Shown here one piece after another: positions 8,663 to 29,675 of a DNA stretch of 29,675 nucleotides. Below the pieces are notes generated by a model. The model was not told where the DNA came from. It worked only from the letters and a program-made list of their open reading frames with translations, and did not search any database. Source of the DNA: a virus; the IMG/VR virus record IMGVR_UViG_3300032116_010335, positions 1 to 29,675 of that record, one strand, 5' to 3'. A program made the translations under genes and the position numbers. Position 1 is the first letter of the stretch, and every line of letters starts with the position of its first letter.

Positions 8663-9187
8663 CTACTTCTTGTCCTTTTTCTTGCTGAAGGCTTTCTTGA
8701 AGTCCTCGTCATCATCATCGTCGTCGTCATCATCGTCTTCGTCGTCCTCGTCCGTAGTCTTGGCAGCCTTCGCAGAAGATTTGCCCCCCGATGATTTGCC
8801 GGAACCCTTCGCCGCAGCTTTGGCAGACTTTTTTGCTGGCTTCTCGTCTTCATCATCATCGTCTTCATCATCATCATCATCGTCATCTTCGTCCTCGTCG
8901 TCATCGACTGGGACTACCTTGCCACCTTTGGCCGTGCTCTTGCTCGCTGCCTTTGGTGGTGACTTCTTTGAAGATTTCTTTGCGGGCTTTTCATCTTCGT
9001 CATCATCGTCATCGTCTTCGTCGTCCTCATCATCGTCATCTTCGTCTTCATCCACTGGCGGCTTACCCTTCTTCGAAGGTGCCGCAGCACCCTTTGCCGG
9101 AAGATTCAGATGTTCAATCAGCACAGTGAGGGCATCTGCGTGATTCTTGATAGATTCAAGTGCCTGAGCCAACGTCATTTTCGCCAT
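8663..9187 (-). CDS. acidic low-complexity protein with alternating Asp/Glu and Lys/Ala blocks
   Basis: 174 residues. A 30-residue N-terminal helix-like segment (LAQALESIKNHADALTVLIE) is followed by three long Asp/Glu tracts separated by Lys-Pro-Ala-Ser linkers such as EDEKPAKKSSKK. No catalytic domain. The linkers are almost identical to those in the tail of the neighbouring single-strand DNA-binding protein, so segments may have been exchanged or amplified by repeat slippage. Polyanionic proteins in phage replication regions may mimic DNA or act as chaperones for basic proteins, but here the role is unknown. A terminator follows the gene. Confidence 0.7.
   Translation of the reverse strand: MAKMTLAQALESIKNHADALTVLIEHLNLPAKGAAAPSKKGKPPVDEDEDDDDEDDEDDDDDDEDEKPAKKSSKKSPPKAASKSTAKGGKVVPVDDDEDEDDDDDDDEDDDDEDEKPAKKSAKAAAKGSGKSSGGKSSAKAAKTTDEDDEDDDDDDDDDDEDFKKAFSKKKDKK
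8704..9053. repeat. imperfect trinucleotide (GAC/GAT) tracts encoding poly-acidic blocks
   Basis: Three runs of TCATC/GTC triplets on the plus strand (about 8704-8755, 8842-8907 and 8991-9053) encode the Asp/Glu tracts on the minus strand. GAC, GAT and GAA/GAG are mixed, so the repeat is maintained at the protein level as well as by slippage. Confidence 0.85.
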
Positions 9188-9233
9188 TGTTACTTACTTC
9201 CCAACTGGAACAAATCGTACAACCAAAACACAA

Positions 9234-9252
9234 GTTCAGCCACACACTGAAC
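9234..9252 (-). terminator. weak hairpin after the single-strand DNA-binding gene
   Basis: GTTCAG and CTGAAC pair around a seven-base loop, starting at the stop codon of the DNA-binding protein gene; the following TTGTGTTTTGG is only moderately T-rich. It may be a weak terminator or simply a 3'-end stabiliser. Confidence 0.3.
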
Positions 9253-10265
9253 TAGAATGGAACATCGTCATCATCATCATCATCGTCATCGTCATCATCC
9301 CGACGCTTTTTCTTGGATGACTTTTCCACCTGTTTCTTTTTGTTTTTAGGTGGTTCGTCATCATCATCATCGTCATCTTCGTCCTCGTCGTCATCATCGA
9401 CTGGTGGTTTCTTCTTGGATGACTTTTTTGCTGGCTTTTCATCTTCCTCATCATCATCATCGTCATCATCATCATCGTCCTTGGACTTCTTTTTCTTCGG
9501 TGGTGCCGAAGTCTGGAAGTACATGTCCGACAAGTCTTCATAGGATGGCAGGACGATCATCGCATCCACGTCGATTTCGTGTTCGATCACCTCTTCCGGC
9601 AGATCTTCTTTTCTTGCACGGAACAGGATCGACGATGCCGGGAACCATGGGCGGGTATTGCCTGTCGGTTTTTCTTCGAACGAAATACGAAGAACCTGCC
9701 CACCTTCGAAGTCGGCGTAAAAGTTCTCTTCGTCATCCGGGTCAAAGTTTTTCAACTGAGCATCCAGCAGTTTCCCGAATCCGTGGAAACTGTAGTCGAA
9801 GACCTGAATCCCGCTGTCGCGATCCTCTTCGTCGAGAATCAGCATGATCTGGCGTTCCTTGACTGCTAACGCCTTTGTCTGTTCATCGCTTGTGTCTGGA
9901 TCTTGAAGCAGTTTGTTGCGATGGTCACATATCGGACATCGCATTCTGTGCTTCGGCGAAAGGTGCTTCGTGTTGTGATATGGACACGGAACAAGCGACT
10001 GCTCTGGTCCTACGTTACCATGAGCGAAGTAAGTCCGTTCGGCGTAGAGTTTACCGACACGGTCATATTTGTACGCTCCCGGATTGGCTTCCGTTGCGAT
10101 GAACGGAATGATACTCCATCGCTTGTTGCAGGTAGCTTTGATCTTGACGACCTTCATGCCGTCAGGCAGCGTCAACGCACCCTTACCCTGCCCAGATGAG
10201 TGTTCTTCCGCACGCTGCCTCATTGACAGGCGTTCGGCTTTTTTGGCTTTATTCTTTTTCGCCAT
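9252..10265 (-). CDS. gp32-like single-stranded DNA-binding protein with zinc site and poly-Asp tail
   Basis: 337 residues. The core carries a zinc-binding arrangement CPYHNTKH...CPICDHRNKL like T4 gp32-type proteins, flanked by a strand-rich region with several aromatic residues. The first 35 residues are basic (KKNKAKKAERLSMRQRAEEH), resembling the cooperativity segment. From about residue 255 the protein becomes alternating Lys-rich and Asp-rich blocks and ends DDDDVPF, strikingly like the protein-docking tip of bacterial SSB. It should coat single-stranded DNA and recruit replication partners through the tail. Position among polymerase, RecA-like and UvsY-like genes supports this. The gp32 family is assigned by layout, not by alignment. 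Confidence 0.8.
   Translation of the reverse strand: MAKKNKAKKAERLSMRQRAEEHSSGQGKGALTLPDGMKVVKIKATCNKRWSIIPFIATEANPGAYKYDRVGKLYAERTYFAHGNVGPEQSLVPCPYHNTKHLSPKHRMRCPICDHRNKLLQDPDTSDEQTKALAVKERQIMLILDEEDRDSGIQVFDYSFHGFGKLLDAQLKNFDPDDEENFYADFEGGQVLRISFEEKPTGNTRPWFPASSILFRARKEDLPEEVIEHEIDVDAMIVLPSYEDLSDMYFQTSAPPKKKKSKDDDDDDDDDDEEDEKPAKKSSKKKPPVDDDDEDEDDDDDDDEPPKNKKKQVEKSSKKKRRDDDDDDDDDDDDVPF
9264..9480. repeat. trinucleotide tracts encoding the acidic tail of the DNA-binding protein
   Basis: Runs of ATC/GTC triplets on the plus strand at about 9264-9299, 9356-9400 and 9439-9480 encode the poly-Asp blocks. They share linker sequence with the tracts in the neighbouring acidic gene, offering sites for slippage or recombination between the two genes. 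Confidence 0.85.
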
Positions 10266-10398: not shown

Positions 10399-10872
10399 CT
10401 AACGTACACCCCCCTTCGACCTTGAAGCAGTCTTATTGATCGATTCGATCTCCTCTCTATCAGCAGTGACTTCTGAGTAGTAGTCCATGCTGTATAATGT
10501 GATCAGACCCTTGAGCATATCGCGTTTGTGATTCAACGCGGTGACTCCGGCCTGAATGATATCAACGTCGTACAAACACTTGTCCCGGAGTTCTTTTGCT
10601 TCCTGATAGTCGCTGCTGTTCCGCATTGCGTTCTGTACAGCGACTTCGGTGATCTTCATCAGTTTGAACTTTTCAGGATTCTTCCGGACTTTCGCATCCA
10701 GTTCCGCCTTAACAGCGACGTAGGTCTGCTCAGCCTCAGCCAATGCGAGCTTTGCATCAGCCAGTTGACACATCAGTTTATGAACGTCTGCGACGTGCAG
10801 AACACATTCCCGGTCCAGACGATTGGGATCAATCCGGAAGATGTTTCGTGGTTCTTTAGCGACTTTTGCCAT
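10399..10872 (-). CDS. helical coiled-coil protein, candidate UvsY-like recombination mediator
   Basis: 157 residues, mainly helical. It opens NIFRIDPNRLDRECVLH and continues with heptad-like LADAKLALAEAEQTYVAVKA, then basic NPEKFKLMKITEVAVQNA and a terminal helix. I recognise the general pattern from phage proteins encoded beside single-strand DNA-binding protein and RecA-like genes. Size, coiled-coil nature and location would fit a UvsY-type mediator that loads recombinase onto coated DNA, but sequence similarity to T4 UvsY is not visible to me. It begins 32 nt after a conserved promoter-like element, so it may head a transcript including the DNA-binding protein and the small ORF. Confidence 0.65.
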   Translation of the reverse strand: MAKVAKEPRNIFRIDPNRLDRECVLHVADVHKLMCQLADAKLALAEAEQTYVAVKAELDAKVRKNPEKFKLMKITEVAVQNAMRNSSDYQEAKELRDKCLYDVDIIQAGVTALNHKRDMLKGLITLYSMDYYSEVTADREEIESINKTASRSKGGVR

Positions 10873-10903
10873 ATCGGACTTTCTGAAAAAGTGTTTTATT
10901 TAT

Positions 10904-10922
10904 AGTCGCAGTGATGCTAACT
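10904..10922 (-). promoter_or_regulatory. conserved 19-bp element, likely phage promoter
   Basis: Minus-strand AGTTAGCATCACTGCGACT followed immediately by ATAAATA. It overlaps the stop codon of the clamp-loader gene and lies 32 nt before the next start at 10872. The downstream A/T-rich hexamer is in a suitable place for a -10 element. Confidence 0.6.
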
Positions 10923-11875: not shown

Positions 11876-13294
11876 TCACAGTGCTGTTTTTGGAACCCAG
11901 ATCCCCTTGGAGTTAATGTCGTATGGTTCTTTCGCGAACCATGAGGCATCAATCGGGGCGACGTCGGCTTCTACCACCATCGGAACAATAATCCATTTCC
12001 AGTGACGTGGTAGTTCTACTTCCATGATATACTTCCATTTGTGAAGCACATCCTGGAGTTCGCTAGGGACAGCATCTAACACGACGGAGTCGTGGATCTG
12101 TCCGATAATGAGTGTTTTCATCTTGTGCTTTCTCAGCCACTTCTGCAGGCGAATCAGACCCCACAGCAGACAGTGGAAAGCACTCCCCTGAATCGGATGG
12201 TTTGTTACGTCGTTCTTGGAGTAGATCCCAGTGACCTGAAATCCTGTTTTGGTTTTCCAGCCACCAGTTTTCAGATACTGGGCGAACGTATCGAACTTCC
12301 ACTTGTCGTATCCCCGGAACCGCTCTTTCCAGAATATCTTTTCTACCGTCCGGATGTGATCCATGAACGTGCCGGGTTCTGGTTCGGTACTGGTTCCGCG
12401 TTCTGTGATTCCCTTTTTGGCCAGATGCTTCCGGATAGATCGCTCTTTGCCGTTGATGTTCAGGGTGATGTTCCGCATTTCCATTACGTCCCACAGATCG
12501 CTGCCTACAGTCTTGTAGTACGAACCGTAAAACTCTGGAAACACGAAGCTGTTCTTGCTGGCAGTTCTGGCAGCTTTCGTCACCTGCTCTGGTTTACACA
12601 GAAATATGTCACATGCTGTATCTCGGTGCATATCCGTAGATGGATCTTCGATATAGCGAATCATCGCCGGGTCTTTGTGATAGCACGCACTGATACGAAC
12701 TTCCACACCGCTACAGTCGATTTCCGCAATACAACGACCTTTCCGTGGGATGAAGCAACTCCGGATCAGACGTGCCATCTCGCCTTCCCGGATTGGCAGA
12801 TTCTGGAAGTTGACTGCTTCTGAACTTGATCGCCATGTTTTTGTTGTGTGAAGGTTAAAGAACACTCGGAGAAACCCACCACGTGTCTCCCGCTCGATCC
12901 CGGCAAGGAATGTGCGGTCGCTCTTGATCAGCTTACACATACGACTGTAATCCCGCACGAAAGGATCATCGATCTTTTCAAGTGCGAGTGCATCTGTAGA
13001 TGGTTTCCCTTTGTCGGTGTACGCGGTAGGCTGATATTTGAGTTCCTTGAACAGTAACTTGCCCAACTGATCGGGCGACGTCAGTTTGGCTTTCTCGCCG
13101 TATCTCTTTTTCCAGAGTCGCCAGTAATCGTGTTCCTTGAGTTCTTTGGTGACGTTCTTGATTTCTTCCTGCATCTTGAGACGCGAGTTAGAAAGGAACT
13201 CGGTATCAATGCGAAATCCATTGGAAGAGATTTCGCTCATCACTATTGCACCTTCGTGCATCAGGTTATACGCTTCCGGTTCGCACGGTATCAT
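11876..13294 (-). CDS. family A DNA polymerase, polymerase domain only
   Basis: 472 residues holding the PolI-type palm, fingers and thumb. Motif A appears as AEIDCSGVEVRISA near residue 190 (DxSxxExR with Cys after the Asp), motif B as RTASKNSFVFPEFYGSYY near 245-260, and motif C as QIHDSVVLD near 400. The NFQNLPIRE block before motif A is typical. There is no 3'-5' exonuclease domain in this polypeptide; it is encoded by the gene just upstream, which ends in an ATGA-type overlap with this start. The two products probably form a complex. The clamp loader follows. Confidence 0.93.
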   Translation of the reverse strand: MIPCEPEAYNLMHEGAIVMSEISSNGFRIDTEFLSNSRLKMQEEIKNVTKELKEHDYWRLWKKRYGEKAKLTSPDQLGKLLFKELKYQPTAYTDKGKPSTDALALEKIDDPFVRDYSRMCKLIKSDRTFLAGIERETRGGFLRVFFNLHTTKTWRSSSEAVNFQNLPIREGEMARLIRSCFIPRKGRCIAEIDCSGVEVRISACYHKDPAMIRYIEDPSTDMHRDTACDIFLCKPEQVTKAARTASKNSFVFPEFYGSYYKTVGSDLWDVMEMRNITLNINGKERSIRKHLAKKGITERGTSTEPEPGTFMDHIRTVEKIFWKERFRGYDKWKFDTFAQYLKTGGWKTKTGFQVTGIYSKNDVTNHPIQGSAFHCLLWGLIRLQKWLRKHKMKTLIIGQIHDSVVLDAVPSELQDVLHKWKYIMEVELPRHWKWIIVPMVVEADVAPIDASWFAKEPYDINSKGIWVPKTAL

Positions 13295-14505
13295 ATCATC
13301 TCCTCATACGCTGGGTGTTCCATCAGGCGAGCTTGTTTGACCGCTACCTTGTATTCCAGAAGTGAGTCAAGTCCGCAGTAGACTAACAGTTCGTGCATTG
13401 GGATATCCTGTACGATCCTGTTGACAGCATGACTGTCATCTTCTTTCTTATCGTCGCTTGTCATGAAGTCATGGATCTTGTCGTTGTAGCTGGGTTGACC
13501 CAACTGAACAAACGACTGGAACTTGATACTGGTGACTCCCTGCCGATTGTCCAGACTGTGAGCTGCCTGCATGGTATCCCACAACCAGCCACGAACACGG
13601 GTTTTCAAGATCGCTTGAGTCCACCGATGTTCAAACTGCAGGTTACTGGCAATTTTCTTTACACGGGGGCTTCTGCAGAACGCTCTAACGGCTTCTGCAA
13701 CCCGTTCCGACCACGCAACGGCAAAAGTATACTTTCCGCCTACGCAGAAGCTAACGGCCAGAATCCGGGCTTTGCTGTGCTCCGGTTTCAGGCTGTTGGT
13801 TTCGTAGTCCCACGCAACCGTACCACCATTCTCAGCCAGATGGTTGATACATCTGATTGCTTCCTTTTCATCGAGGATATTAACCTGAGAATGGAAGTCT
13901 GGGATCTTGTTCTCTTTGTAGGGGTGCTTCCTGCGTTTCAGTGCAGAAGCGATCTGCTGTTCGAACAGTACGCCGGAACACTGCCGTTCCTCATTCGTGG
14001 GTTCAATCACGGGACAGACCCAGCAGTTCGTTAACTGTGCTGGAATCTGATAACCATACCAGCGATGTGGATCGCCTGCTGGTTTATTCCATGTGAACTG
14101 GATAACGTTCCTGACTGCGGCATCCCCGATAGCAATCACTGTATGGGGTTTCAGTTCCTTGATCGATTCGCGTAGTTTGAAACTGCAGGCATCAATCTGT
14201 TCGCTTGTGGGTTTATTGGTATGGCAGATTGTGGCAGCAGTGACGTAGCAGTTCTTCGGACTGATGTTCATATCCAGAAGTACGTCGCGTACTTTAGTAC
14301 CGACAGAAGACATCATAAAAACACCGCTGTCATCCGCAGGTTTACTGATCGGCGGCAGTACAATCATCACACCAGTGGAACCACTTCCCTGCGGTTCCAG
14401 CTTGGGTGACTTACAGTGTTTGTACAGACCGCACGCCCCACAGCGAGCAGATGCTGAATAAACCTTTGTCCGCATTAAAGTCGCGGCCTGAAACAAACCC
14501 TTCAT
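13291..14505 (-). CDS. UDG-like domain fused to a DnaQ-like 3'-5' exonuclease (N-terminal part of a split polymerase)
   Basis: 404 residues with two domains. Residues 1-200 resemble the Fe-S uracil-DNA glycosylase superfamily: a CGACGLYKHC cysteine cluster at 22-31, MIVLPPISKPADDSG where family 4 has its GEAPG motif, and VIEPTNEE where the HPS motif would be; the degenerate catalytic motifs suggest a structural role. The C-terminal half is a proofreading exonuclease with Exo I VAWDYETNSL, Exo II SNLQFEHRW and Exo III YCGLDSLLEYK. The stop overlaps the polymerase ATG. This matches the layout of phage PolA proteins with an N-terminal UDG-like domain, here split from the polymerase. Start ATG 14505 directly follows the previous TAG. 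Confidence 0.85.
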   Translation of the reverse strand: MKGLFQAATLMRTKVYSASARCGACGLYKHCKSPKLEPQGSGSTGVMIVLPPISKPADDSGVFMMSSVGTKVRDVLLDMNISPKNCYVTAATICHTNKPTSEQIDACSFKLRESIKELKPHTVIAIGDAAVRNVIQFTWNKPAGDPHRWYGYQIPAQLTNCWVCPVIEPTNEERQCSGVLFEQQIASALKRRKHPYKENKIPDFHSQVNILDEKEAIRCINHLAENGGTVAWDYETNSLKPEHSKARILAVSFCVGGKYTFAVAWSERVAEAVRAFCRSPRVKKIASNLQFEHRWTQAILKTRVRGWLWDTMQAAHSLDNRQGVTSIKFQSFVQLGQPSYNDKIHDFMTSDDKKEDDSHAVNRIVQDIPMHELLVYCGLDSLLEYKVAVKQARLMEHPAYEEMI

Positions 14506-19871: not shown

Positions 19872-20648
19872 TTAACCTTTGATAAGAGAAAACAATTCGG
19901 CACGGGTTGCTGGTGTATTGAACGCACCAGTGATACAGGAAGTGACCATAACGCTGTTGGGTTTCTGCACACCACGACATGCCATGCACATATGCTGCCC
20001 CTCGATGATACATGCCGCCCCACGGGGAGACAGGTGCTCATTCAGGGTATCGACAATCTGCTTAGTGAGGCGTTCCTGATTCTGCAGTCTGCGGGAAAAG
20101 GCTTCCACAAGACGAGCCAGTTTGCTGAGTCCGACGATCTTCGTTCCGGGGATGTATGCAACATGAGCTACCCCGTAGAACGGAAGTATGTGATGTTCAC
20201 ACATACTGTAGAAGTGAATGCCACGCAACAAAACCATTTCGTCGTACTGTTCTGCATCGAATGTAGTGAACAATGACGGAATGTCAACGGCATAGCCGCA
20301 GTACAACTCCTCCCACGATTCAATGACACGACGTGTGGTATCTTTCAAACCCTCACGGGTAGTATCTTCCCCGATAGCATCGAGGAAGTCGCGTATGCCC
20401 TGTGCTGATCCATTGAAGTCTGCTCGCTCTGCGATAGTATGCCGCAGATCAACAAACTCACGAAACTCTTCATCCGTCAGGATCAGAGGATCACTGTGAA
20501 CGTTTGCTTCTGTGGGCATTACCGGCATATTGCCGTCATCGTCGAACTGTGGCAGGTCTGACTCTGCTGATTCAGAGTCATCAGATTCAGGGATAAACGG
20601 TTCTGAAAATTCACGCTCGTCATCGGGTTCCTCAAATGGCGAATTCAT
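19872..20648 (-). CDS. folE: GTP cyclohydrolase I (FolE)
   Basis: 258 residues. The catalytic domain (from about residue 75) has all the hallmarks: FYSMCEHHILPFYGVAHVAY with zinc Cys and His, IVGLSKLARLVEAFSRRLQ, QERLTKQI, and a later CMACRG zinc Cys. It opens GTP to dihydroneopterin triphosphate, feeding QueD. The first 70 residues are an unusual acidic extension (EEPDDEREFSEPFIPESDDS) not needed for catalysis. The gene begins 64 nt after a promoter-like repeat and is followed by the degenerate QueD gene. In phages this enzyme typically supports 7-deazaguanine synthesis. Confidence 0.95.
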   Translation of the reverse strand: MNSPFEEPDDEREFSEPFIPESDDSESAESDLPQFDDDGNMPVMPTEANVHSDPLILTDEEFREFVDLRHTIAERADFNGSAQGIRDFLDAIGEDTTREGLKDTTRRVIESWEELYCGYAVDIPSLFTTFDAEQYDEMVLLRGIHFYSMCEHHILPFYGVAHVAYIPGTKIVGLSKLARLVEAFSRRLQNQERLTKQIVDTLNEHLSPRGAACIIEGQHMCMACRGVQKPNSVMVTSCITGAFNTPATRAELFSLIKG

Positions 20649-20711
20649 TGTTCTGTTTCAAGGCACATTCCATGCCGGGTAAAAGTGGGTAAAACTTGAA
20701 CCAACCAATAT

Positions 20712-20730
20712 AGTCGTAGTGATGCTAACT
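20712..20730 (-). promoter_or_regulatory. conserved 19-bp element upstream of folE
   Basis: Minus-strand AGTTAGCATCACTACGACT followed by ATATTGG. It overlaps the stop codon of the queE gene and lies 64 nt before folE. It matches the copy at 10904 at all but one base. Confidence 0.6.
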
Positions 20731-21493
20731 ATGGCAAGCCCACAATTTTCTGGATTTGCAGACAAAGGGTATACCCGTACTTCATGCACGACTGGACGCA
20801 GGCTTCCATGTTTCGGCGATTGGTTTCCGGATCTTTGGAATCTTCCGGTTGCAGGAACACACGACGACGATTGGATTCCATGATCCATTCTGTTGGGCGA
20901 TGCGGTCGTATGCACTGCCCCAGTACGCGAGTGGGAAGTCCATCGATCCCACAAACACCATCAGCAGACATCACGTATTTCCAGAAGTCAAACAGTTCTG
21001 TATCGTCATGCGTGATATGACTTGTTTTGGGGGAAACAACGTAAATGACGTCAACGTTACAAAAATTGTCAAGAAAGGGGGAGTAGACTCCATTCGTTTC
21101 TATCTGTATACGAATGGCACGACGCTCTTTGATCAAATACGAGTCCAGACGTTCGATACAATTGATCAACGCTGCCGTTTGACGAAGTGGTTCTCCACCA
21201 GTAATGACGTACAAATCAACATCTGGATGCTTCACGATGGTGTTATGTACGAATGCTTCGTCTGTCCAGAACTCCCGGTGGCTGGTGTAATCCGTGTCAC
21301 ACTTCGGGCACTGCAGGTTACACCCAGCCAGTCGAATAAACAGGGCTTTTTGTCCGGTACACGGACCCTCTCCCTGAATAGTTACGAAGGTCGAATGTAC
21401 ACCCAGTTCATACGGGGTTGTCGATTCACGTTCCGGGGGTTGTGCGTTTACGAAGTTCGGATCGGTAGAGGAATCGGGTTTTTCCACATTCAT
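20729..21493 (-). CDS. queE: 7-carboxy-7-deazaguanine synthase QueE (radical SAM)
   Basis: 254 residues. The radical SAM cluster motif is AGCNLQCPKCDTDYTS (CxxxCxxC) near residue 57, preceded by FVTIQGEGPCTGQKALFIRL and followed by LYVITGGEPLRQ and IQIETNG, all typical of QueE. It converts carboxy-tetrahydropterin to 7-carboxy-7-deazaguanine. The first 30 residues are a Pro/Glu-rich extension read in the overlap with queD (about 68 nt), so an internal start is possible. The C-terminal FLQPEDSKDPETNRRN fits the family end. It stands between queD and folE, forming the CDG pathway core. Confidence 0.93.
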   Translation of the reverse strand: MNVEKPDSSTDPNFVNAQPPERESTTPYELGVHSTFVTIQGEGPCTGQKALFIRLAGCNLQCPKCDTDYTSHREFWTDEAFVHNTIVKHPDVDLYVITGGEPLRQTAALINCIERLDSYLIKERRAIRIQIETNGVYSPFLDNFCNVDVIYVVSPKTSHITHDDTELFDFWKYVMSADGVCGIDGLPTRVLGQCIRPHRPTEWIMESNRRRVFLQPEDSKDPETNRRNMEACVQSCMKYGYTLCLQIQKIVGLP

Positions 21494-22004
21494 CGCATTT
21501 CACCTTTAAAGGGTCAGAGAAATCACATTCGTGGGGGACGCGGTTGATACGCACGAGGTCTTCTTCGTAGTCGTGGGCACTGTAACAGACAGTCGAACTG
21601 TCCGTCTCCTGTATCTCCAGTGTGATGAGTGGCCAGTCTGCCGCGAGATCATCAAAGATAGTGAAGCAGATGTTCTCGACGCTGGGGATTTCGTCAAGAA
21701 CTACTCGTTTCATTGGAATCGGGAAGTTCGTTTCTTCTACCTGTTGGAACAGTGGAAGCAACGGATCATCCTTGTCGATGATGTGGGCATGATCCCACTT
21801 CTCATTGAAGTACCGTCCGACCCGTTCGAAATCTGAAAAGGGAATCGATATGTCCGGGTTCCCAGAATCACGAACGGCCTGGAAGTATAGCGTAATGCCG
21901 TATCGATGACCATGAATGGAGAAGCATTTGTCCTCCATATTTCGATTACGGTGAGACGCATAAAATTTGAACGTTTTCTTGATAAGCATGACGTGGTGGT
22001 CCAT
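21426..22004 (-). CDS. queD: 6-carboxy-tetrahydropterin synthase QueD with a C-terminal zinc tail
   Basis: 192 residues. Zinc ligands and the catalytic Cys are intact: FKFYASHRN, then KCFSIHGHRYGI (Cys four residues before HGH), followed by WDHAHIIDKDDPL with the Asp-His pair and a late LEIQETDSS Glu. It makes carboxy-tetrahydropterin from dihydroneopterin triphosphate. The last 35 residues (HECDF, KCDECGKTRFLYRSELRKR) add a Cys-rich element absent from standard QueD. The start is ATG 22004 or ATG 21989; neither has a strong ribosome site, and a terminator-like hairpin ends about 8 nt before the first. It overlaps queE. Confidence 0.92.
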   Translation of the reverse strand: MDHHVMLIKKTFKFYASHRNRNMEDKCFSIHGHRYGITLYFQAVRDSGNPDISIPFSDFERVGRYFNEKWDHAHIIDKDDPLLPLFQQVEETNFPIPMKRVVLDEIPSVENICFTIFDDLAADWPLITLEIQETDSSTVCYSAHDYEEDLVRINRVPHECDFSDPLKVKCDECGKTRFLYRSELRKRTTPGT

Positions 22005-22014
22005 TCATAGCAAA

Positions 22015-22044
22015 AGAGCACCGGACATTTCGGTCCGGTGCTCT
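22015..22044 (-). terminator. rho-independent terminator upstream of queD
   Basis: A perfect 12-bp stem (AGAGCACCGGAC / GTCCGGTGCTCT) with a six-base loop is followed by TTTTGC on the minus strand. It lies about 30 nt after the stop of the charged winged-helix gene and directly before queD. Confidence 0.85.
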
Positions 22045-22072
22045 GTGATGGTTACTGGTGTTGTACTGAGGA

Positions 22073-22813
22073 TCAATCCTCAGACTTCGCTACCTTGACA
22101 ACCTTGTAGCGATCTTTGGCGTCGCGGTCGATCAGACTCGATACCAGATGCAGACGGCGGAGATGGGCGTTAACGCGATCCTTCGTGATGCTGTCATCAA
22201 CTTCGACGACCGCTTCGTGGATCTGTGCCGCAGTGAGTCCGTTCTTGCCCGCCTTGAACAGAACCGAATTGATCAGATAAGCGGAAGATCCTTCACGGGA
22301 ACCCCATCGGTCGGTGTTCGCTTTCTCGGCCTTCTCAGCTTTCTTCGCTGGCTTCTTGTCTTTCTTGCCGGACTTCTTGGATGACTTCTTCGGTGCTTCA
22401 TCCTCGTCATCTTCGTCGTCCGCTGGTTTGGCTTTCTTTCCGGACTTCTTGGACTTCGTTGGCTTTTCGTCCTCTTCCTCCTCTTCCTCGTCGTCTTCGT
22501 CCTCTTCCTTTGCAGGCTTCTTGCCCTTCGCTGGCTTCTCAGCCTTTGCTGCTGGCTTCTCAGGTTTGGATGACTTCTTTGGAACGGTCGGGTCGTCGCC
22601 GGAGACTTCAATATCCTTTTCTGCATCACGGGCAGCGGCGATGTCGGCGAGAACTTCGATCTCGTACTTGCCGTCGTCTTCGTGGTCTTCCATGTTTTCT
22701 TCAACAAGGGCGAGCAACGCTTCGTTGCTGATAGGTTTACCCTTGACGGTTGTCTTCAGACCCATCTCGTCGGCGGCTGCTTTGAGATCCTTACGTGAAA
22801 TCTTTTTGGACAT
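22073..22813 (-). CDS. charged linker protein with C-terminal winged-helix-like domain
   Basis: 246 residues in three parts. An N-terminal SAP- or LEM-like helical segment (KDLKAAADEMGLKTTVKGKP, NEALLALVEEN) is followed by about 90 residues of Lys/Pro/Ala and Asp/Glu blocks (EEDEDDEEEEEEDEKPTKSK). The last 75 residues look like a winged helix (SAYLINSVLFKAGKNGLTAA, TKDRVNAHLRRLHLVSSLID). DNA binding is likely; a nucleoid-like or transcription role is inference. The DEKP/KKSSKK linkers resemble those in the single-strand DNA-binding protein and the acidic protein. A promoter-like element lies 70 nt upstream and a strong terminator downstream, suggesting a single-gene transcript. Confidence 0.75.
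   Translation of the reverse strand: MSKKISRKDLKAAADEMGLKTTVKGKPISNEALLALVEENMEDHEDDGKYEIEVLADIAAARDAEKDIEVSGDDPTVPKKSSKPEKPAAKAEKPAKGKKPAKEEDEDDEEEEEEDEKPTKSKKSGKKAKPADDEDDEDEAPKKSSKKSGKKDKKPAKKAEKAEKANTDRWGSREGSSAYLINSVLFKAGKNGLTAAQIHEAVVEVDDSITKDRVNAHLRRLHLVSSLIDRDAKDRYKVVKVAKSED
22398..22509. repeat. low-complexity tracts encoding acidic blocks
   Basis: Plus-strand TCATC/GTC and TCTTCC runs at about 22398-22423 and 22467-22509 encode the Asp/Glu blocks of the winged-helix protein. They are shorter and more Glu-rich than those at 8704-9480. Confidence 0.7.
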
Positions 22814-22882
22814 GGTACTGGTGTTCCTAAACGAACTGAAAAACTGTTTGCCAAAATTGGCGCGGAGCGTACACTAATAAAA

Positions 22883-22901
22883 AGTCGTAGAGATGTTAAG
22901 T
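22883..22901 (-). promoter_or_regulatory. conserved 19-bp element upstream of the winged-helix gene
   Basis: Minus-strand ACTTAACATCTCTACGACT followed by TTTTATTAG, which contains a -10-like TTTATT. It begins 2 nt after the stop of the preceding gene and is 70 nt before the start at 22813. Confidence 0.55.
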
Positions 22902-22902
22902 T

Positions 22903-23394
22903 TCAATCTGCGGATTTTTCAGAATTTTCCGAAACTGGTTCCGGAGACGGCAGTTCCATCACGTTTGTCATGGAATCCAGAACAAAAGTATTGTGAGCCG
23001 TTTCTTCCGCTGGTGGACCGGCTTCCGGTGCTGGCATCGAAGGGAGTGCTGCCGCTCTTTCTGTTGGTGGGGTTGCCAGCGATTCGATAATCGCTGCAGT
23101 TAGCCGCCTCCAGTAGAATTGACGATGTTTCGATGGTACACGTTCCCCCATCATGACGATGCCGTCCCGGACAGCTTCGCGTTCTTCGTGCGTTAGCTGA
23201 GAGTAAATCTTGTCGCTGTAGTAGCGGGCAATCTGAGAAATCAAAACGGCTTCAGGCGATTTGGCGTGTTTTGTCATCATCAATGAAAGTTGAATGCGAA
23301 CTTTCAAATTGGTATCAACCACAGTGAGCAACGGATCACTATACCCCTCTGGTGGGTATTTCATTTCGGGTATATCGGTGAGGTCGATCTTCAT
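22903..23394 (-). CDS. hypothetical phage protein
   Basis: 163 residues with GGAG ahead of ATG 23394. The N-terminal 100 residues are mixed alpha/beta (DPLLTVVDTNLKVRIQLSLM, LISQIARYYSDKIYSQLTHE), and the last 60 are a Pro/Ala/Glu-rich, probably disordered tail (PSMPAPEAGPPAEETAH). No family is recognised. It lies between the replicative helicase and the winged-helix gene, each boundary carrying a promoter-like element, so it may be expressed from its own transcript. Confidence 0.65.
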   Translation of the reverse strand: MKIDLTDIPEMKYPPEGYSDPLLTVVDTNLKVRIQLSLMMTKHAKSPEAVLISQIARYYSDKIYSQLTHEEREAVRDGIVMMGERVPSKHRQFYWRRLTAAIIESLATPPTERAAALPSMPAPEAGPPAEETAHNTFVLDSMTNVMELPSPEPVSENSEKSAD

Positions 23395-23441
23395 TTACTT
23401 CTCCAAGGAATGAAACTACGGAAATGGAACCACTATTCTGA

Positions 23442-23460
23442 AGTCGTAGAGATGCGGATT
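23442..23460 (-). promoter_or_regulatory. conserved 19-bp element after the helicase gene
   Basis: Minus-strand AATCCGCATCTCTACGACT followed by TCAGAATAG with a -10-like CAGAAT. It is the most diverged copy at its 5' end, begins just after the helicase stop and is 48 nt before the next start. Confidence 0.5.
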
Positions 23461-23461
23461 T

Positions 23462-24886
23462 TCATTTACGGAATTTACTGGATTTTCTTTCTGACGTCTC
23501 CAGCTTCCGAGGAACCCATATCGCACACTTTGCCGGGGAATAGGTCGCAAGGTCAGATGCTACGTAGATCGAGCGAGACTTGGAACCAGTGCGGCGGAAT
23601 GTGTATGAGAGTTTGAAGATGCTTTCGTGAATCTCGGTGCGGTCGATACCGATCTCCGCCGTGATGAAAGCTCTCTTTGTCTTTGATTCGCTGAAAGACT
23701 TTTCTGACAGTTCTTCTGAGTACGCAGAAGCATTCGCTTGCGTAGCGGTAACCAGTGCCAGTTTGTACGACTGGGACAGTGTACGCAGATCGCCCCAGAT
23801 TTCTGTAACAGCGAATCGATTGTCCTGATACTTACTCTTGCTCGCTCCGAGAATGTCCGCGTAGTCAACAACGACTACATGGATCTGGATACCGCGCATA
23901 GATAGAGAATCCAAAATGGATCTAATGGTTGAGACGGTAAGCATACCTCTGGGGAAGTTACGTGAGAAAAAACGATTTCTACACGCCTTTTTGAGTCGCT
24001 TCTTGATGCGATTGATTTCATCCTGAGTAAGTGCTTCCGCTGTCTCAACTTCCTCAACGTCGAAGATGACTTCGTTACCTTCCGACGTGAGGTCATTCCA
24101 GATCCACCTTGGCCCCTCTTTGTATGGCTTCCCCGCAGACCTCGCCGCGAACCTGAGAAACACCTGTTCATCCGTCATATCCCCCGCGTCAAGGTAGAGA
24201 ACGTTTTTGTTGGACTTCAGAGCAGAAATAGTCGTTTCAAGTAACCACTGGGACTTCCCACGTTTTTCAGGAGCAAGGAACGCGGTGAATGTACTCGGTG
24301 CAAACGTGTCGTCGAAGAACTTGTCAACTACTTCATTATCGAAATGGAAGACGGGGGCTGAAATCTTTGAGATGTCCGTGCCTACGTTCGGATCGTCAAA
24401 GATCGAATCGTATTCAGGTTCCCTTGTCAGCGTTACCGGCATTGCTCCCGGTACAATGTCAACGATGTTATCCGCAGAAGAACTACCACCCATTCTGTCA
24501 GAAGCGATCAGCACCTGCTGCCGTCGTAGTACTTCCTCAGTGATATCAAATAGCTGGTCTCTGCGGAACGTAGTCCCTTCCCACGCTTCAGCCACAGACA
24601 GTCGCAGGTTATCAATAGCTTCGCAAAGATCCCCACCACCGGACTTCTCTTCGAACGGTTCGAGGTACTGCATACGAAGGATATCATCGCCGGGGGCTTT
24701 ACCTGCTTTCACATAATGCTTCAGGCACCACTTGACTATTCGCTTTGGGGCATCAGCCAGAAACAGATCGTCTTCGTGCTGTGCGTGCCACACTGCGGCA
24801 GAGTGCAGAACCTGCGAATCATTTATCATCGCCCCCAGAACGATCAGATCGCGTTTTTGATTCTTGCTGGTTTCTTTGATTTTCAT
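23462..24886 (-). CDS. DnaB-like replicative helicase
   Basis: 474 residues. The N-terminal region (RDLIVLGAMINDSQVLHSAA) fits the DnaB N-domain. The RecA-like motor has a modified Walker A, FLAPEKRGKSQWLLET, in which the first Gly is Ala, a Walker B-like VVVVDYADILGASKS and motif VTATQANASAY. A late RRTGSKSRSIYV supplies a candidate arginine finger. It would unwind DNA ahead of the polymerase and interact with the primase encoded two genes upstream. It overlaps the preceding gene by 68 nt at its start. The KRGKS type of P-loop occurs in other phage DnaB-like proteins. Confidence 0.87.
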   Translation of the reverse strand: MKIKETSKNQKRDLIVLGAMINDSQVLHSAAVWHAQHEDDLFLADAPKRIVKWCLKHYVKAGKAPGDDILRMQYLEPFEEKSGGGDLCEAIDNLRLSVAEAWEGTTFRRDQLFDITEEVLRRQQVLIASDRMGGSSSADNIVDIVPGAMPVTLTREPEYDSIFDDPNVGTDISKISAPVFHFDNEVVDKFFDDTFAPSTFTAFLAPEKRGKSQWLLETTISALKSNKNVLYLDAGDMTDEQVFLRFAARSAGKPYKEGPRWIWNDLTSEGNEVIFDVEEVETAEALTQDEINRIKKRLKKACRNRFFSRNFPRGMLTVSTIRSILDSLSMRGIQIHVVVVDYADILGASKSKYQDNRFAVTEIWGDLRTLSQSYKLALVTATQANASAYSEELSEKSFSESKTKRAFITAEIGIDRTEIHESIFKLSYTFRRTGSKSRSIYVASDLATYSPAKCAIWVPRKLETSERKSSKFRK

Positions 24887-25673
24887 TATTGATAGTTCTC
24901 CTGATTACTGCATTTACGACTGCATCGGCAATGTAAGGGTTTTCCTGTCCTGCTCGCGTTGATCTGAGCATCGCTTGTAACTCTGCCACCATCGGCTGTG
25001 GGTTCTTGTACGAGATGTTGTGTACCGATCCACCCAGCGAACCATTCCATCCACTCCAGCTCACTTTCGATTTGAGATTCTTGATGAATGGAATAGTGTA
25101 ACTTCTTTCGAACACGTCAATCAGTGCCGGAGTGACAACGTCGAAGAACACCTGAAACTTATTCTCTTTCTTCAGGTTCTCACGATACTGTTCTGCCGCT
25201 TCGATAATGTCACCGCAGAACTCCAGATACTCCCACGCTGCGTAGATCAGTTCTTCTTTCGAAGTTGTCAGACCCTGAACCTCTCGTCGTGCCTGACACA
25301 TCAACTTTTCTGGCAGATGTGGATGAATCGTTCGGTATGACGGCAGATCCCATTGCTTTGTCTGGTTGTGAGCGTGTTTGTACATCCAGACAACATCATC
25401 CCACTTAGCCCGGAGTGCTCTCGCTGACTGTACCATCGCTTTCAATTTTGGGTCTGTCGAGTAGACATTGCAGAACCAGTCGAATACTGGTGGGAAGTTG
25501 TCTTCCGACTCGGATAAAAGTCTCAATACTCTCGACCATTCCGTCAGAGACGTTTTCCGCGAGAGTCCAATTCCAGCCTTGATGAGACACGAATGTAACT
25601 GTGTTGCCAGAGTCTCCGATTCCTTTGTCGAAACGGGTCGTGTCGATTTGTTGTGGTGGAACAGTTTGTCCAT
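24819..25673 (-). CDS. unknown protein, candidate helicase loader
   Basis: 284 residues, mainly helical, with Trp-containing stretches (SLTEWSRVLRLLSE, AKWDDVVWMYKHAHNQ) and no nucleotide-binding motif. The C-terminal 30 residues are polar and Arg/Gln-rich (NNENQRNQQESKTRS). Its place between the primase and the helicase, and the long overlap with the helicase start, suggest a helicase loader or primosome accessory. That is inferred from context only. ATG 25673 has AGGAG in front. Confidence 0.65.
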   Translation of the reverse strand: MDKLFHHNKSTRPVSTKESETLATQLHSCLIKAGIGLSRKTSLTEWSRVLRLLSESEDNFPPVFDWFCNVYSTDPKLKAMVQSARALRAKWDDVVWMYKHAHNQTKQWDLPSYRTIHPHLPEKLMCQARREVQGLTTSKEELIYAAWEYLEFCGDIIEAAEQYRENLKKENKFQVFFDVVTPALIDVFERSYTIPFIKNLKSKVSWSGWNGSLGGSVHNISYKNPQPMVAELQAMLRSTRAGQENPYIADAVVNAVIRRTINNENQRNQQESKTRSDRSGGDDK

Positions 25674-25688
25674 CGCTTTGCTCCTGTG

Positions 25689-26567
25689 TTATTTCAATAA
25701 CTTCCTGAGAGATTTAAGTTCGCTGGTATCAGCACTGTCGGGATCTTTTGCTTCCAGTTCAATAGTGAATGTCTTTCCGGGCAGCAGAGATAATTCTTCT
25801 GCCAGTCGTTGCATATACCGTTCCGCACCGTGGTCGTAACAGATGTACCGTTTTGGATACTTCGCTAACTGTTTGATCTGGGCTTTGCTGACTCGCGTTC
25901 CGAGTGTACCTAATGCACCGGGACCGATAGCCCACACGTCAAACAATCCTTCCACGACGACCACACTGTTCCGGGCATAGTCGTGACCGTAGAGCAACTT
26001 CTTATGATCGATCATCTCTTCTGATTTGCTGGCTGTCAGATAGCGAACAATATCTTCTGACTTTGCAATAGAGCGAGTGGTCCAGCTTACGACACGGTCG
26101 TTGTATTCAAACGGTATGAATATCCGCCACTGCAAACGACCACCTTCCAGACCGATTCCCTGTATGTGCCAGAGTTCCTGTAAGCGAAGCCATGAGTACC
26201 CCCGATCTCTCAGGTACTGCTTATGACAATCCTGCAACGGACCAATCCCATCCGGCAGTTTAAGAACTCCTGAGGCTTCGATTCCCTGTTGTAGATTCTT
26301 CTGTCTGGGTAGTTCGGCCACTATCTCACGGACTACAGCGAGACTGGCCCCTGTTAACGCCTGCAGCGTGCTTTCCAGATGTTTTCCACCACAACGCCAG
26401 CAGGAAAACCTACCGATCGCAACGTTGTATCCAAGGTGAAACTTATTACTGCCGGGACCGCAGTTGTAACAGTCAGTTTGTATCCAGCCGCGACTGGTGT
26501 GTGCTCCGTGGGTTCGATATGGGATTCTGTACTTTTCGCAGATTTGGATGAAGTCCATAATTCTCAT
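25689..26567 (-). CDS. DnaG-like DNA primase
   Basis: 292 residues. The N-terminus has a zinc-binding domain (TDCYNCGPGSNKFHLGYN and SCWRCGGKHLES). Residues 130-180 match a primase N-domain (RLQWRIFIPFEYNDRVVSWT), and the TOPRIM motif follows (VVVVEGLFDVWAIG, YICYDHGAERY). It makes RNA primers for the replisome. It is short compared with bacterial DnaG and lacks a helicase-binding C-terminal domain, which the next gene might supply. The start is ATG 26567 or ATG 26558, both without a strong ribosome site. A promoter-like element lies 60 nt upstream. Confidence 0.9.
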   Translation of the reverse strand: MRIMDFIQICEKYRIPYRTHGAHTSRGWIQTDCYNCGPGSNKFHLGYNVAIGRFSCWRCGGKHLESTLQALTGASLAVVREIVAELPRQKNLQQGIEASGVLKLPDGIGPLQDCHKQYLRDRGYSWLRLQELWHIQGIGLEGGRLQWRIFIPFEYNDRVVSWTTRSIAKSEDIVRYLTASKSEEMIDHKKLLYGHDYARNSVVVVEGLFDVWAIGPGALGTLGTRVSKAQIKQLAKYPKRYICYDHGAERYMQRLAEELSLLPGKTFTIELEAKDPDSADTSELKSLRKLLK

Positions 26568-26626
26568 TACACGGTGGAATTGAAATTGAGAACCGGGGGC
26601 TGTTTAATTCCGCCCGAACATTAGAC

Positions 26627-26645
26627 AGTCGTAGCGATGCTAACT
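26627..26645 (-). promoter_or_regulatory. conserved 19-bp element upstream of the primase gene
   Basis: Minus-strand AGTTAGCATCGCTACGACT followed by GTCTAATG, containing the -10-like TCTAAT. It begins 2 nt after the SNF2 helicase stop codon and lies 60 nt before the primase start. Confidence 0.62.
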
Positions 26646-26646
26646 T

Positions 26647-28026
26647 TCATCGGAATAATGTTTTTTGTGACTGGGCAAGTTGTTCCAGCAGTTCGATAGA
26701 TTCGCCTTCTCCACCGTCCAGAATCTGATTCAGGTTACCAGACTTCTCTTCGACCACTGACACAATCCGTTCTTCTACCGTACCCTGTGCCACAAGGTAA
26801 TAGATGAAGCAGTGGTTGTCCTGCGAGATACGATGGATACGTGCTTCGCCCTGTGCGTGTCTCGCTGGAACCCAGTCAATTTCAAAGAACGCTAGATGAC
26901 TGGCTGCAGTCAGGGTAAGTCCTTCGCCTGCCGCTTCGATGTTCCCGATGAACAAACGGCAGTTCGGATCGTTCTGGAATTTGTCAACTGCCAGTTTCCG
27001 CTTTTTCATGCTGGTGACTGTTCCGTCAACTCTCACATGCACCTTTGCGTACCTCTTACAAAGTTGCTCAATTGGTTCAGTGTGACATCCTAACAATACG
27101 AGTTTCTCGTCCGACTCGTGTAAGAAATCATCTATCCAATCTATCACATACTTCATCTTGTTCTTGATGATCAATCGCCTCAAATATCCAGTCTTCGAAA
27201 GAGACTGAGACTTCTTGGCTTTTAGCATCGCCCCCTTCCCATAGGTCTGTCCGACCCATGAAAGGAATTGCTTCTCTGCTTTCTTGTACTCGGCTTTATG
27301 TTCGTAAGGGAGTGGGATGATCTGTCTTGTGTATTCCGGCAGGTCTTTCAACACGTCTTTCTTCAGACGACGGAACATACACAGACGAGTCAGGTTACGG
27401 TGAAGTGTGTCAAGGTTCTGTGCTCCCCTGAATTCCAGCTTGCCGCGTATCACTTCAGCCTTACAGTACTTCGTACCGAACTTGACATACGAAGCATATC
27501 GGTCTGGTCTGAGCATATTGAGAACCGGCCACAGTTCGATGGGACGGTTGCGTAGTGGAGTACCGGACATAGGCAGGAAGTGATCACAATTCCACCGAAG
27601 CTGGTGTGTGAATTTATACTGGTCCGTTCTGCGGTTCGCTACTCCTTGGCACTCGTCAAGGATCAGGACTGCCGGTTCGATGTCACACAGTACATCGACC
27701 CACGCACCCAGAATAGCGAAGTTCAGAATGATGATCTCTGCTTTCTTTACCGCTCTCCGTCCGGCTTTGTTTACTTTACGACCTTCGAGTACCAGAGCAT
27801 GTTTGCCAAAGTGATGGCGTGCCTCATACTCCCAGTTGTACTTCAACGATGCTTTGCATACGATGACGCACGGGAACTTGCCTTTCTGTACGGACCACAG
27901 AAGAGACAGAAACGATTTGCCGAGACCCATCTCATCACCAATTAAAACGGTTCCACGAAACTTTTCAATCAGGTGGAACCCTTCGACTTGATGTGGGAGT
28001 GGTTTAGTCAGAGACTTCCACTTCAT
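26647..28026 (-). CDS. SNF2-family DNA helicase/translocase
   Basis: 459 residues with the full SF2/SNF2 motif set: Q-region PLPHQVEGF, motif I IGDEMGLGKS, Ia IVCKASLKYNW, motif II ILDECQGV (DECQ), motif III MSGTPLRNRP, motif IV region VLLGCHTEPI, motif V AAGEGLTLTAAS and motif VI RIHRISQDN. It is closest in architecture to short SMARCAL1-like phage helicases, which remodel forks or promote recombination. It follows a small gene with an ATGA overlap. Precise function in the phage is unknown. Confidence 0.93.
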   Translation of the reverse strand: MKWKSLTKPLPHQVEGFHLIEKFRGTVLIGDEMGLGKSFLSLLWSVQKGKFPCVIVCKASLKYNWEYEARHHFGKHALVLEGRKVNKAGRRAVKKAEIIILNFAILGAWVDVLCDIEPAVLILDECQGVANRRTDQYKFTHQLRWNCDHFLPMSGTPLRNRPIELWPVLNMLRPDRYASYVKFGTKYCKAEVIRGKLEFRGAQNLDTLHRNLTRLCMFRRLKKDVLKDLPEYTRQIIPLPYEHKAEYKKAEKQFLSWVGQTYGKGAMLKAKKSQSLSKTGYLRRLIIKNKMKYVIDWIDDFLHESDEKLVLLGCHTEPIEQLCKRYAKVHVRVDGTVTSMKKRKLAVDKFQNDPNCRLFIGNIEAAGEGLTLTAASHLAFFEIDWVPARHAQGEARIHRISQDNHCFIYYLVAQGTVEERIVSVVEEKSGNLNQILDGGEGESIELLEQLAQSQKTLFR

Positions 28027-28328
28027 ACGTATGATACCTTTGCTCGTTGTAGTGACTCAACTCGGAATGTGAGAATCGGTTCACCACTGGGAGTATTAAA
28101 TATGCGATAACCGTCGTCTACTTTCGTCATGGGTTGTGTGTACTCAAAGTTGTTGAGAATGCAACGATCAAGTACAATCGTCTTCAGCACCTTCTCTTCT
28201 TTGATTATACCCAAAGCGAGCATCCACCATTTGTCGCTTTCTTCATACTCGACAAACTTCTCTTTTGGCGGTTCTCCTGCGATAGTGTCTTCCATGTTAA
28301 TGATGATCTGGCAAAAATCTGTTGTCAT
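28023..28328 (-). CDS. small hypothetical protein
   Basis: 101 residues, mixed alpha/beta, with ESDKWWMLALGIIKEEKVLK and FEYTQPMTKVDDGYRIFNTP. No family is recognised. It has ATGA overlaps with both the sigma-like gene before it and the SNF2 gene after it, which supports a real, co-translated gene. Confidence 0.65.
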   Translation of the reverse strand: MTTDFCQIIINMEDTIAGEPPKEKFVEYEESDKWWMLALGIIKEEKVLKTIVLDRCILNNFEYTQPMTKVDDGYRIFNTPSGEPILTFRVESLQRAKVSYV

Positions 28329-28840
28329 CGGAGTGCCTCTCGTATTTCGTTACAGATATCGTGCAACTGTTCAGACGACCAGTTAAAGTGCTCCCGCACA
28401 ACCTTTAATACGCTTCTGGCTTTCGGCGTTCCGTCCAGAGCATACTTTACCCCGTCCGGCGGTTCCAAAGCCACCAGAACCGCGCCTGCGGCTTCCTGGG
28501 ATAGCTCAGAAAGAAAGTCCGGGAATGAAAATCGGGCACGGTCTTGCATATCGAACTTGTCGGAAATACGTCGCATGGGGTGTTTGGCTTTTCGATTGAC
28601 TTCGATGCGACGGGCAGCGTAGGTATCATCCCATACGACTTTGTACAGATATGCCTTGAACGCTTTACCGGCAGCAGGTCGATAGAAGCGACAGGCTTTG
28701 TCATACAGTAACCAGAGCGACGCTTTCATTTCTTCGAGATCACCGCCGATCTGGTTATGGACAGAATACAAAGCCTTCATCATATAAGGAATGTGCTTCT
28801 GGTACTCTTCAAGCGACAATGCTGGTGCAGAATTGGACAA
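28325..28840 (-). CDS. sigma-70-like (ECF-type) RNA polymerase sigma factor
   Basis: 171 residues. Residues 33-85 resemble sigma region 2: DLEEMKASLWLLYDKACRFY, then AFKAYLYKVVWDDTYAARRI. The C-terminus (RSVLKVVREHFNWSSEQLHD) looks like a small helix-turn-helix that would serve region 4. Phage sigma-like proteins of this size are known to redirect host RNA polymerase to middle or late genes. The start is TTG 28840 with a strong AAGGAG seven bases upstream. It overlaps the next gene by ATGA. It is the best candidate in the window for recognising the repeated promoter-like element, but that pairing is inference. Confidence 0.7.
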   Translation of the reverse strand: MSNSAPALSLEEYQKHIPYMMKALYSVHNQIGGDLEEMKASLWLLYDKACRFYRPAAGKAFKAYLYKVVWDDTYAARRIEVNRKAKHPMRRISDKFDMQDRARFSFPDFLSELSQEAAGAVLVALEPPDGVKYALDGTPKARSVLKVVREHFNWSSEQLHDICNEIREALR

Positions 28841-28888
28841 GTGCGAACTCCTTTTGCTGGGTGAAGTGTCAGATGTTTGCGGGCGTAC

Positions 28889-28917
28889 AGTCTAGCAAAT
28901 TTCAACGCAGAACGCAA
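28889..28917 (-). promoter_or_regulatory. candidate sigma-70-type promoter upstream of the sigma-like gene
   Basis: TTGCGT and TAGACT are 17 nt apart on the minus strand, with TGC just before the -10. It directly follows the stop codon at 28918 and is about 50 nt before the sigma-like start. Part of the upstream sequence weakly resembles the repeated 19-bp element. Confidence 0.4.
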
Positions 28918-29670
28918 CTAGGCAGTGGCTGGTGCCGCTTCGCTTTCGAGCGGGTATTCAGACCGTACTTCGACACGATTCACAACCGTTTGCTTCTGCC
29001 CCCGGTATTCTCCGTGTTCCTTGACCGTTACCCGGACAACGTACTCTCTGTTGTACTCCAGCCAGCGAGACGTGCCCGATGCAAACCAGACCAGCAGGTT
29101 ACCAGAGACGTCTACCATACGGTGAAGACATTTGGAATCGCGGAACGTATTATATGGGTGAGTTCCTGTCACCTTGACTCTCAGGTCAAAGCGACTACCA
29201 ACAAGGCCAATATGATCAGATACAGTTTTCCCAGTCGATTCTTCCATACACTTCTGGTATGAAACAACCGCACTCGCCGCGTACCCGATGGTCTTCCATG
29301 TGACGTATTCATTGTGGGCAATCACTTTCAGGTTGCTGTAGTAGTTGTTGCCGTCGGCATCGAGCGACTTCATCCAGTCGATAACCTTCGCTGCAAACGT
29401 TACGTCGTATTCTTCAGTTTCGATTGTCTCGATCTGCATACCGCGAGGGGGATGAAACTGATCGAAAGCGACAATACTGGTGGGCAGTTTGCATTCGTCT
29501 TCTGCCCTCGCTTTGTTGACGTATCCGGTACTGCGGACAATGGAAACTACGACTGCCATGTACTTCTGAAGATCGGCACACGCCAATTCTCTCGGCAGAC
29601 GAAATGATTCATCATCGTCAACAGTAAGTTCACTTTCCAGATGGAGCATACACGACGCCCACTCTGCCAT
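28918..29670 (-). CDS. phage protein with C-terminal OB-fold-like domain, 5' end possibly outside window
   Basis: 250 residues readable from ATG 29670; the frame stays open to the window edge, so the true start may be farther upstream. The last 100 residues follow a pattern I know from other phage proteins: HIGLVGSRFDLRVKVTG, HRMVDVSGNLLVWFASG, then RVTVKEHGEYRGQKQTVV. This looks like a beta-barrel domain, possibly nucleic-acid binding. The middle part (IDWMKSLDADGNNYYSNLKV, EYVTWKTIGYAASAVVSY) is not recognised. No catalytic residues are identified. Its role is unknown; replication or DNA binding is suggested only by position upstream of the sigma factor and helicase. Confidence 0.7.
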   Translation of the reverse strand: MAEWASCMLHLESELTVDDDESFRLPRELACADLQKYMAVVVSIVRSTGYVNKARAEDECKLPTSIVAFDQFHPPRGMQIETIETEEYDVTFAAKVIDWMKSLDADGNNYYSNLKVIAHNEYVTWKTIGYAASAVVSYQKCMEESTGKTVSDHIGLVGSRFDLRVKVTGTHPYNTFRDSKCLHRMVDVSGNLLVWFASGTSRWLEYNREYVVRVTVKEHGEYRGQKQTVVNRVEVRSEYPLESEAAPATA

Positions 29671-29675
29671 TGCCA

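Follow-up and report, generated by a model that had tools for sequence, protein, structure and literature searches.

Phage sigma factors and the nearest relatives of the protein

In known sigma factors, region 2 is the part that binds core RNA polymerase and melts the promoter around -10. Two phage sigma factors that use the host core, phi32_gp36 of phage phiEco32 and gp47 of phage 7-11, serve as points of reference: in an account of them (PMC8948821), phi32_gp36 is said to be without region 4 homology but is a working sigma factor that serves middle and late genes from a promoter with a single element, tAATGTAtA, and gp47 recognizes a bipartite promoter, GTAAtg-(16)-aCTA, with mapped late promoters. 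Closer to the protein considered here are B7L88_gp045 of Rhizobium phage RHEph10 and HTE81_RS00040 of plasmid pLM21S1, both of a phage and phage-plasmid family that has the Pfam Sigma70_r2 domain, with which it shares region 2 homology. Sigma factors of the RHEph10/pLM21S1 type are 21-32% identical to it, are longer (211-213 aa versus 171) and are likewise encoded close to replication genes. In six plasmid and phage records a gene of this sigma family lies directly behind a MoxR-, CobS- or AAA-type ATPase gene, whereas here the preceding gene encodes a phrog_2319 protein of unknown function, and Pfam and PHROGs searches recover no ATPase gene directly upstream. A DNA polymerase III alpha gene is found slightly downstream of the sigma-family gene in three of those six ATPase-neighbor records.

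The DNA analyzed here (hereafter the window) is a complete IMG/VR virus record, 29,675 bases long. We propose, with a probability of roughly 0.7, that a gene near one of its ends encodes a divergent phage sigma factor, which would steer the host's core polymerase towards a set of phage promoters. In gene content the locus resembles the Nanhaivirus phages Dinoroseobacter R5C and Pseudanabaena Pan1, which have similar replication and deazaguanine genes in a broadly or partly similar order; in the stretches compared (36.0-77.9 kb of R5C and 23.0-72.0 kb of Pan1) there is no sigma region 2-like ORF among those that start with ATG and encode at least 100 aa.

The sigma-like gene and its likely operon

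The gene occupies positions 28325-28840 on the minus strand and encodes 171 aa, with a TTG start preceded by an AAGGAG ribosome-binding site. Its codon usage scores 0.186 bits per codon, akin to the other genes of the window (0.158-0.320 for the 14 that formed the reference, these being training genes scored without leave-out). The same-strand alternative frames score -0.002 and -0.099, the opposite-strand frames -0.037 to 0.008, and a competing plus-strand ORF at the locus 0.044 bits per codon. The gene is thus real, as the first-pass annotation of this DNA, made from the letters alone, had assumed.

Downstream, and each overlapping its predecessor by 4 nt, follow a 101-aa ORF with no family match (28023-28328, minus strand) and a gene for an SNF2-type helicase (26647-28026, minus strand; PF00176 at 1.6e-25, phrog_62 at 4.4e-96). 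Because of these successive overlaps the three genes look like one operon headed by the sigma-like gene, and they are likely to be co-transcribed. Two sister loci in IMG/VR are near-identical across the sigma-like gene (99.97% over 7.7 and 6.8 kb). The first-pass annotation had set the gene at the head of an array; this is true of the replication and modification block but not of the strand as a whole, as a sister contig carries further same-strand ORFs upstream of it.

The same annotation placed a host-like promoter, TTGCGT-N17-TAGACT, in the 77-nt gap upstream of the gene (28841-28917, minus strand), which also holds the ribosome-binding site. The pair agrees with the consensus at 7 of 12 bases (3 + 4), a level equaled or bettered at 400 of 29,640 minus-strand positions at a spacer of 17, and five further pairs with seven matches lie within the same 170 nt. 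A stricter promoter scan omits the pair altogether and finds nine promoter-like sites in 20000-29675, no excess over the shuffle mean of 9.7. The proposed promoter is therefore unsupported, being no better than chance.

Homology to sigma region 2

Direct searches with the protein were empty in Pfam (E up to 5), PHROGs (E up to 0.5), NCBIfam (E up to 5) and, using phmmer, the PDB sequences (E up to 10), as were the converse searches of the record with PF04542 (Sigma70_r2; E up to 10), phrog_351 and phrog_3741. Since it has no direct match to Pfam Sigma70_r2, we speak of a divergent relative and not of an annotated member of that family. Its closer relatives in IMG/VR are confined to the two near-identical loci and there are none in the genome_contigs collection; likewise, a local tblastn over 32 loci recovered near-identical homologs only, the next best match having an E-value of 0.57. 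A tblastn search of the phage collection gave nothing at E up to 1, and three terminase matches (E 6-8) in the search extended to E 10 were judged spurious.

The connection to sigma factors emerged from plasmids. A tblastn search at E up to 10 matched six records, among which two long matches, not significant by themselves (residues 19-151, 26-27% identity, E 7 and 10), fall in one gene family that is annotated as a sigma factor in one of the two. The bridging plasmid gene is itself recognized by Sigma70_r2 at 2e-6 and by phrog_351 (RNA polymerase sigma factor) at 9.7e-13. Further relatives were collected from IMG/VR, phages, plasmids and one bacterial genome. In an alignment of these termed A5, Sigma70_r2 recognizes 13 of the 14 members at E-values of 1 or less, the lowest being 3.3e-10; the window's own protein is the one it misses. 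Used as a profile against the PDB sequences, A5 lists 37 matches at E up to 10, of which 33 are named sigma factors; the best E-value, 0.044, is tied by a non-sigma protein.

Profile-profile comparison with hhalign links the protein to this family consistently, all E-values being those of single comparisons: the first alignment gave a probability of 91.9 and an E-value of 7e-7, the N-terminal part against 16 sequences 95.3% and 2.2e-8 (0 of 100 shuffles as good), and the N-terminal part against 23 sequences 95.7% and 9e-9 (0 of 150 shuffles), with residues 34-72 of our protein as the strongest segment. Against the 13-sequence family the score is 51.8, with 26.2 as the best of 300 shuffles, and among 303 ORFs from six sources, each starting with ATG and encoding at least 100 aa, the sigma-like ORF ranks first with 49.2, followed by a runner-up at 24.6.

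It might be argued that this similarity is a coincidence of a short helical sequence in a protein of some other function, given the empty direct profile searches and the fact that the strongest match spans just 37-39 residues. We consider this quite improbable: the score is about twice that of the next of the 303 ORFs and of the best of 100-300 shuffles, and in pairwise comparisons of the N-terminal part with three relatives, none of 1000 shuffles was as good in any of them.

Thus, by profile comparison with an intermediate family that matches PF04542, the protein can be placed among the sigma region 2 proteins as a divergent member. The first-pass annotation had ascribed sigma features to it and had proposed a profile search against region 2 and region 4 models, taking a lack of similarity as a refutation; such a lack is what the direct searches in Pfam, PHROGs, NCBIfam and the PDB returned, and for region 2 it is overturned through the sigma family that bridges to Sigma70_r2. 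The protein is thereby an example of a sigma-like protein missed by standard profile libraries.

The C-terminal part and the predicted structure

The C-terminal ~65 residues are predicted to be helical. In three relatives no Pfam region 4 domain is detected at E up to 5 with the HMMER filters on. Compared with the 16-sequence family, the C-terminal part scores no better than chance, 9 of 100 shuffles equaling it; the 23-sequence family is matched over almost the full length of this part with a score of 16.3, the best of 150 shuffles being 16.0 and the probability 3%. Pairwise comparisons are uneven, with 15, 92, 544 and 22 of 1000 shuffles equaling the score in a first set and 20, 10, 93, 11 and 607 of 1000 in a second. 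The alignment displays an LS..A...PP stretch in register with the RHEph10/pLM21S1-type family. To a C-terminal 'LS.DA' motif of phage sigma factors we attach no evidential weight. The C-terminal match to this phage and phage-plasmid sigma family is therefore suggestive only; the domain may be the same as that of the family, and possibly a degenerate region 4.

As it is region 2 alone, and not region 4, that is supported, the protein might also be a regulator with a region 2-like domain that binds the host polymerase without choosing promoters. We regard this as unlikely, for its nearest family carries sigma factor annotations and phi32_gp36, for all its reported want of region 4 homology, works as a sigma factor (PMC8948821).

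A structure model built from the single sequence reached a pLDDT of just 44, a poor value. When 13 region 2 rows from the relatives were supplied the overall pLDDT rose to 60, with ten-residue blocks at 61-81 over residues 1-80 and at 42-65 beyond. Foldseek returned 130 PDB matches for the model at E up to 10 and none at 0.001, the best being a sigma factor at E 0.13. With VIA-align, Z reaches 7.8 (74 residues, 2.4 A) for the isolated N-terminal domain of SigE, with no value of at least 8, and the matches to sigma region 2 structures fall mostly on model residues 1-83. Z values of such size are common for helical models. For this reason, and because the alignment rows came from sigma proteins, the predicted fold is counted as fitting and not as proof: it is consistent with sigma region 2.

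A repeated element in the replication block

The pattern GTTAGCATCNCTRCGACT, derived from the six copies themselves, matches the window six times at up to 3 mismatches, always on the minus strand; the mean in 100 shuffles was 0.06 and no shuffle reached six. Read in the direction of transcription, the first copy directly follows the sigma operon and precedes the primase gene (26626-26644). The others lie before the ORF at 22903-23394 (23441-23459, the weakest, with 3 mismatches), before that at 22073-22813 (22882-22900), before the GTP cyclohydrolase gene (20711-20729), where the clamp loader gene ends, ahead of the ORF at 10399-10872 (10903-10921), and within the tail of a RusA-like ORF, with 175 nt separating it from the next listed start (6173-6191). 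In five of the six the element core sits at a stop codon, and 32-70 nt separate its end from the next listed gene; the stop ends 2 nt before the core in three, overlaps its first base in one and lies inside it in one. Five of the 15 minus-strand gaps of more than 30 nt between listed genes contain a copy. The element, which the first-pass annotation had reported as a conserved 19-bp repeat in front of downstream genes, is real.

Both pattern and matrix scans found no copy before the sigma-like gene itself. A degenerate copy considered there was rejected, with 504 of 1000 shuffles aligning equally well. The sister contigs, which extend past the window on both sides, have three copies each, at the same six sites by sequence, and no extra one. 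In ten other loci the best matrix score is 17.1, versus 32.6-38.9 for the six copies and up to 15.2 in 20 shuffles with a matrix of slightly shorter length; the separation from background is partly circular, as both matrices were built from those copies. The R5C and Pan1 stretches defined above likewise contain no good match, their best matrix scores being 13.0 and 9.5. A control with the reversed pattern gave four matches in the window, one of them elsewhere and three that are the element shifted by one base, since its middle is close to a mirror image of itself. As an RNA structure the element was rejected: the six copies have no consensus pairs, and the window has no Rfam match at the gathering score.

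Rhizobium phage RHEph10 has a repeated intergenic element of its own, a palindrome around TCAATATTGA. The repeat, searched as a 9-mer with up to one mismatch, occurs in 18 of 56 hand-listed gaps in the first 100 kb, with a maximum of nine in five shuffles. A palindrome is more in keeping with a dimeric regulator than with a promoter, and we therefore do not count this repeat as support.

What reads the element

Under our main reading the sigma-like protein, with residues of about 10-80 serving as region 2, would bind the host core polymerase and direct promoter-specific transcription, and the element-bearing replication and modification genes would be among its targets. This last step, that it acts on the element-bearing genes, we advance tentatively and at less than even odds. 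The link is weakened by the two cases described above: neither the single-element promoter of phi32_gp36 nor the bipartite promoter of gp47 (PMC8948821) resembles a contiguous block of 17-19 bp.

A TATAAT-like hexamer (4-5 of 6 matches, AT-rich) begins within 2 nt after each of the six copies, and a TTGACA-like hexamer precedes the element with 4-5 of 6 matches in four copies and 2 of 6 in two, and is the weaker evidence of the pair. In 20,000 random draws of six positions the -10-like or -35-like sum was never reached. Such flanks would be expected if host sigma-70 served the element genes, with the 17-bp core as a spacer site for another phage regulator; the sigma-like protein would then be a factor for other promoters, such as late ones, for which gp47 of phage 7-11 with its mapped late promoters is a precedent (PMC8948821). 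An offset scan agrees in part, with a TATAAT-like peak right behind the core, but the best TTGACA match lies inside the core at a spacing foreign to sigma-70. Moreover, the range and register of the hexamers were picked after inspection, three of the -35-like hexamers include the stop codon of the preceding gene, two of the best -10-like hexamers would require a 19-bp spacer, and the window yielded no regulator of this kind. We hold this explanation to be a serious possibility, if somewhat short of probable.

A contiguous conserved block of 17-19 bp in a single orientation also recalls the promoters of T7-kind single-subunit RNA polymerases, which are contiguous blocks of about that length; the sigma-like protein would then have nothing to do with the element. 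However, a PHROGs search of the 30 window proteins turned up no such polymerase, and we rate this as very improbable.

Returning to the divergent sigma factor, the layout of an element-free sigma operon followed by an element-bearing unit fits the cascade proposed in the first-pass annotation, which is plausible; it fits equally well with host sigma-70 promoters that have a regulator site in the spacer. The most specific form of the proposal is that region 2 and a non-canonical C-terminal domain would together read a long contiguous element of 17-19 bp without a canonical -35/-10 pair and thereby control, in a Nanhaivirus-like phage, all of the block for replication and DNA modification. We consider it rather unlikely in this full form. 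The main reading, if true, would provide a compact test case for how far phages strip down or rebuild sigma factors, and would explain how a phage with deazaguanine-type genes turns on its replication block as one unit.

Gene content of the replication and deazaguanine block

PHROGs matches in the block identify genes for QueD, primase and a DnaB-like protein; for QueE, GTP cyclohydrolase, a queuine tRNA-ribosyltransferase-like protein, a MazG-like protein, a clamp and a PolA-like protein; and for a clamp loader, a UvsX-like protein, a RusA-like protein and thymidylate synthase. The DNA polymerase I-like gene (11876-14505, minus strand) consists of two adjoining ORFs, which match positions 527-844 and 835-1237 of phrog_17 in succession. 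Long runs of GAT/GAC-type codons encode acidic repeats in ORFs at 8663-10265 and 22073-22813 (minus strand), and two of the three ORFs of this kind (8663-9187 and 22073-22813) weakly match phrog_15004, a single strand DNA binding protein. A strong terminator-like hairpin (22044-22015, minus strand) of 12 pairs, eight of them G-C, immediately precedes the QueD-like gene.
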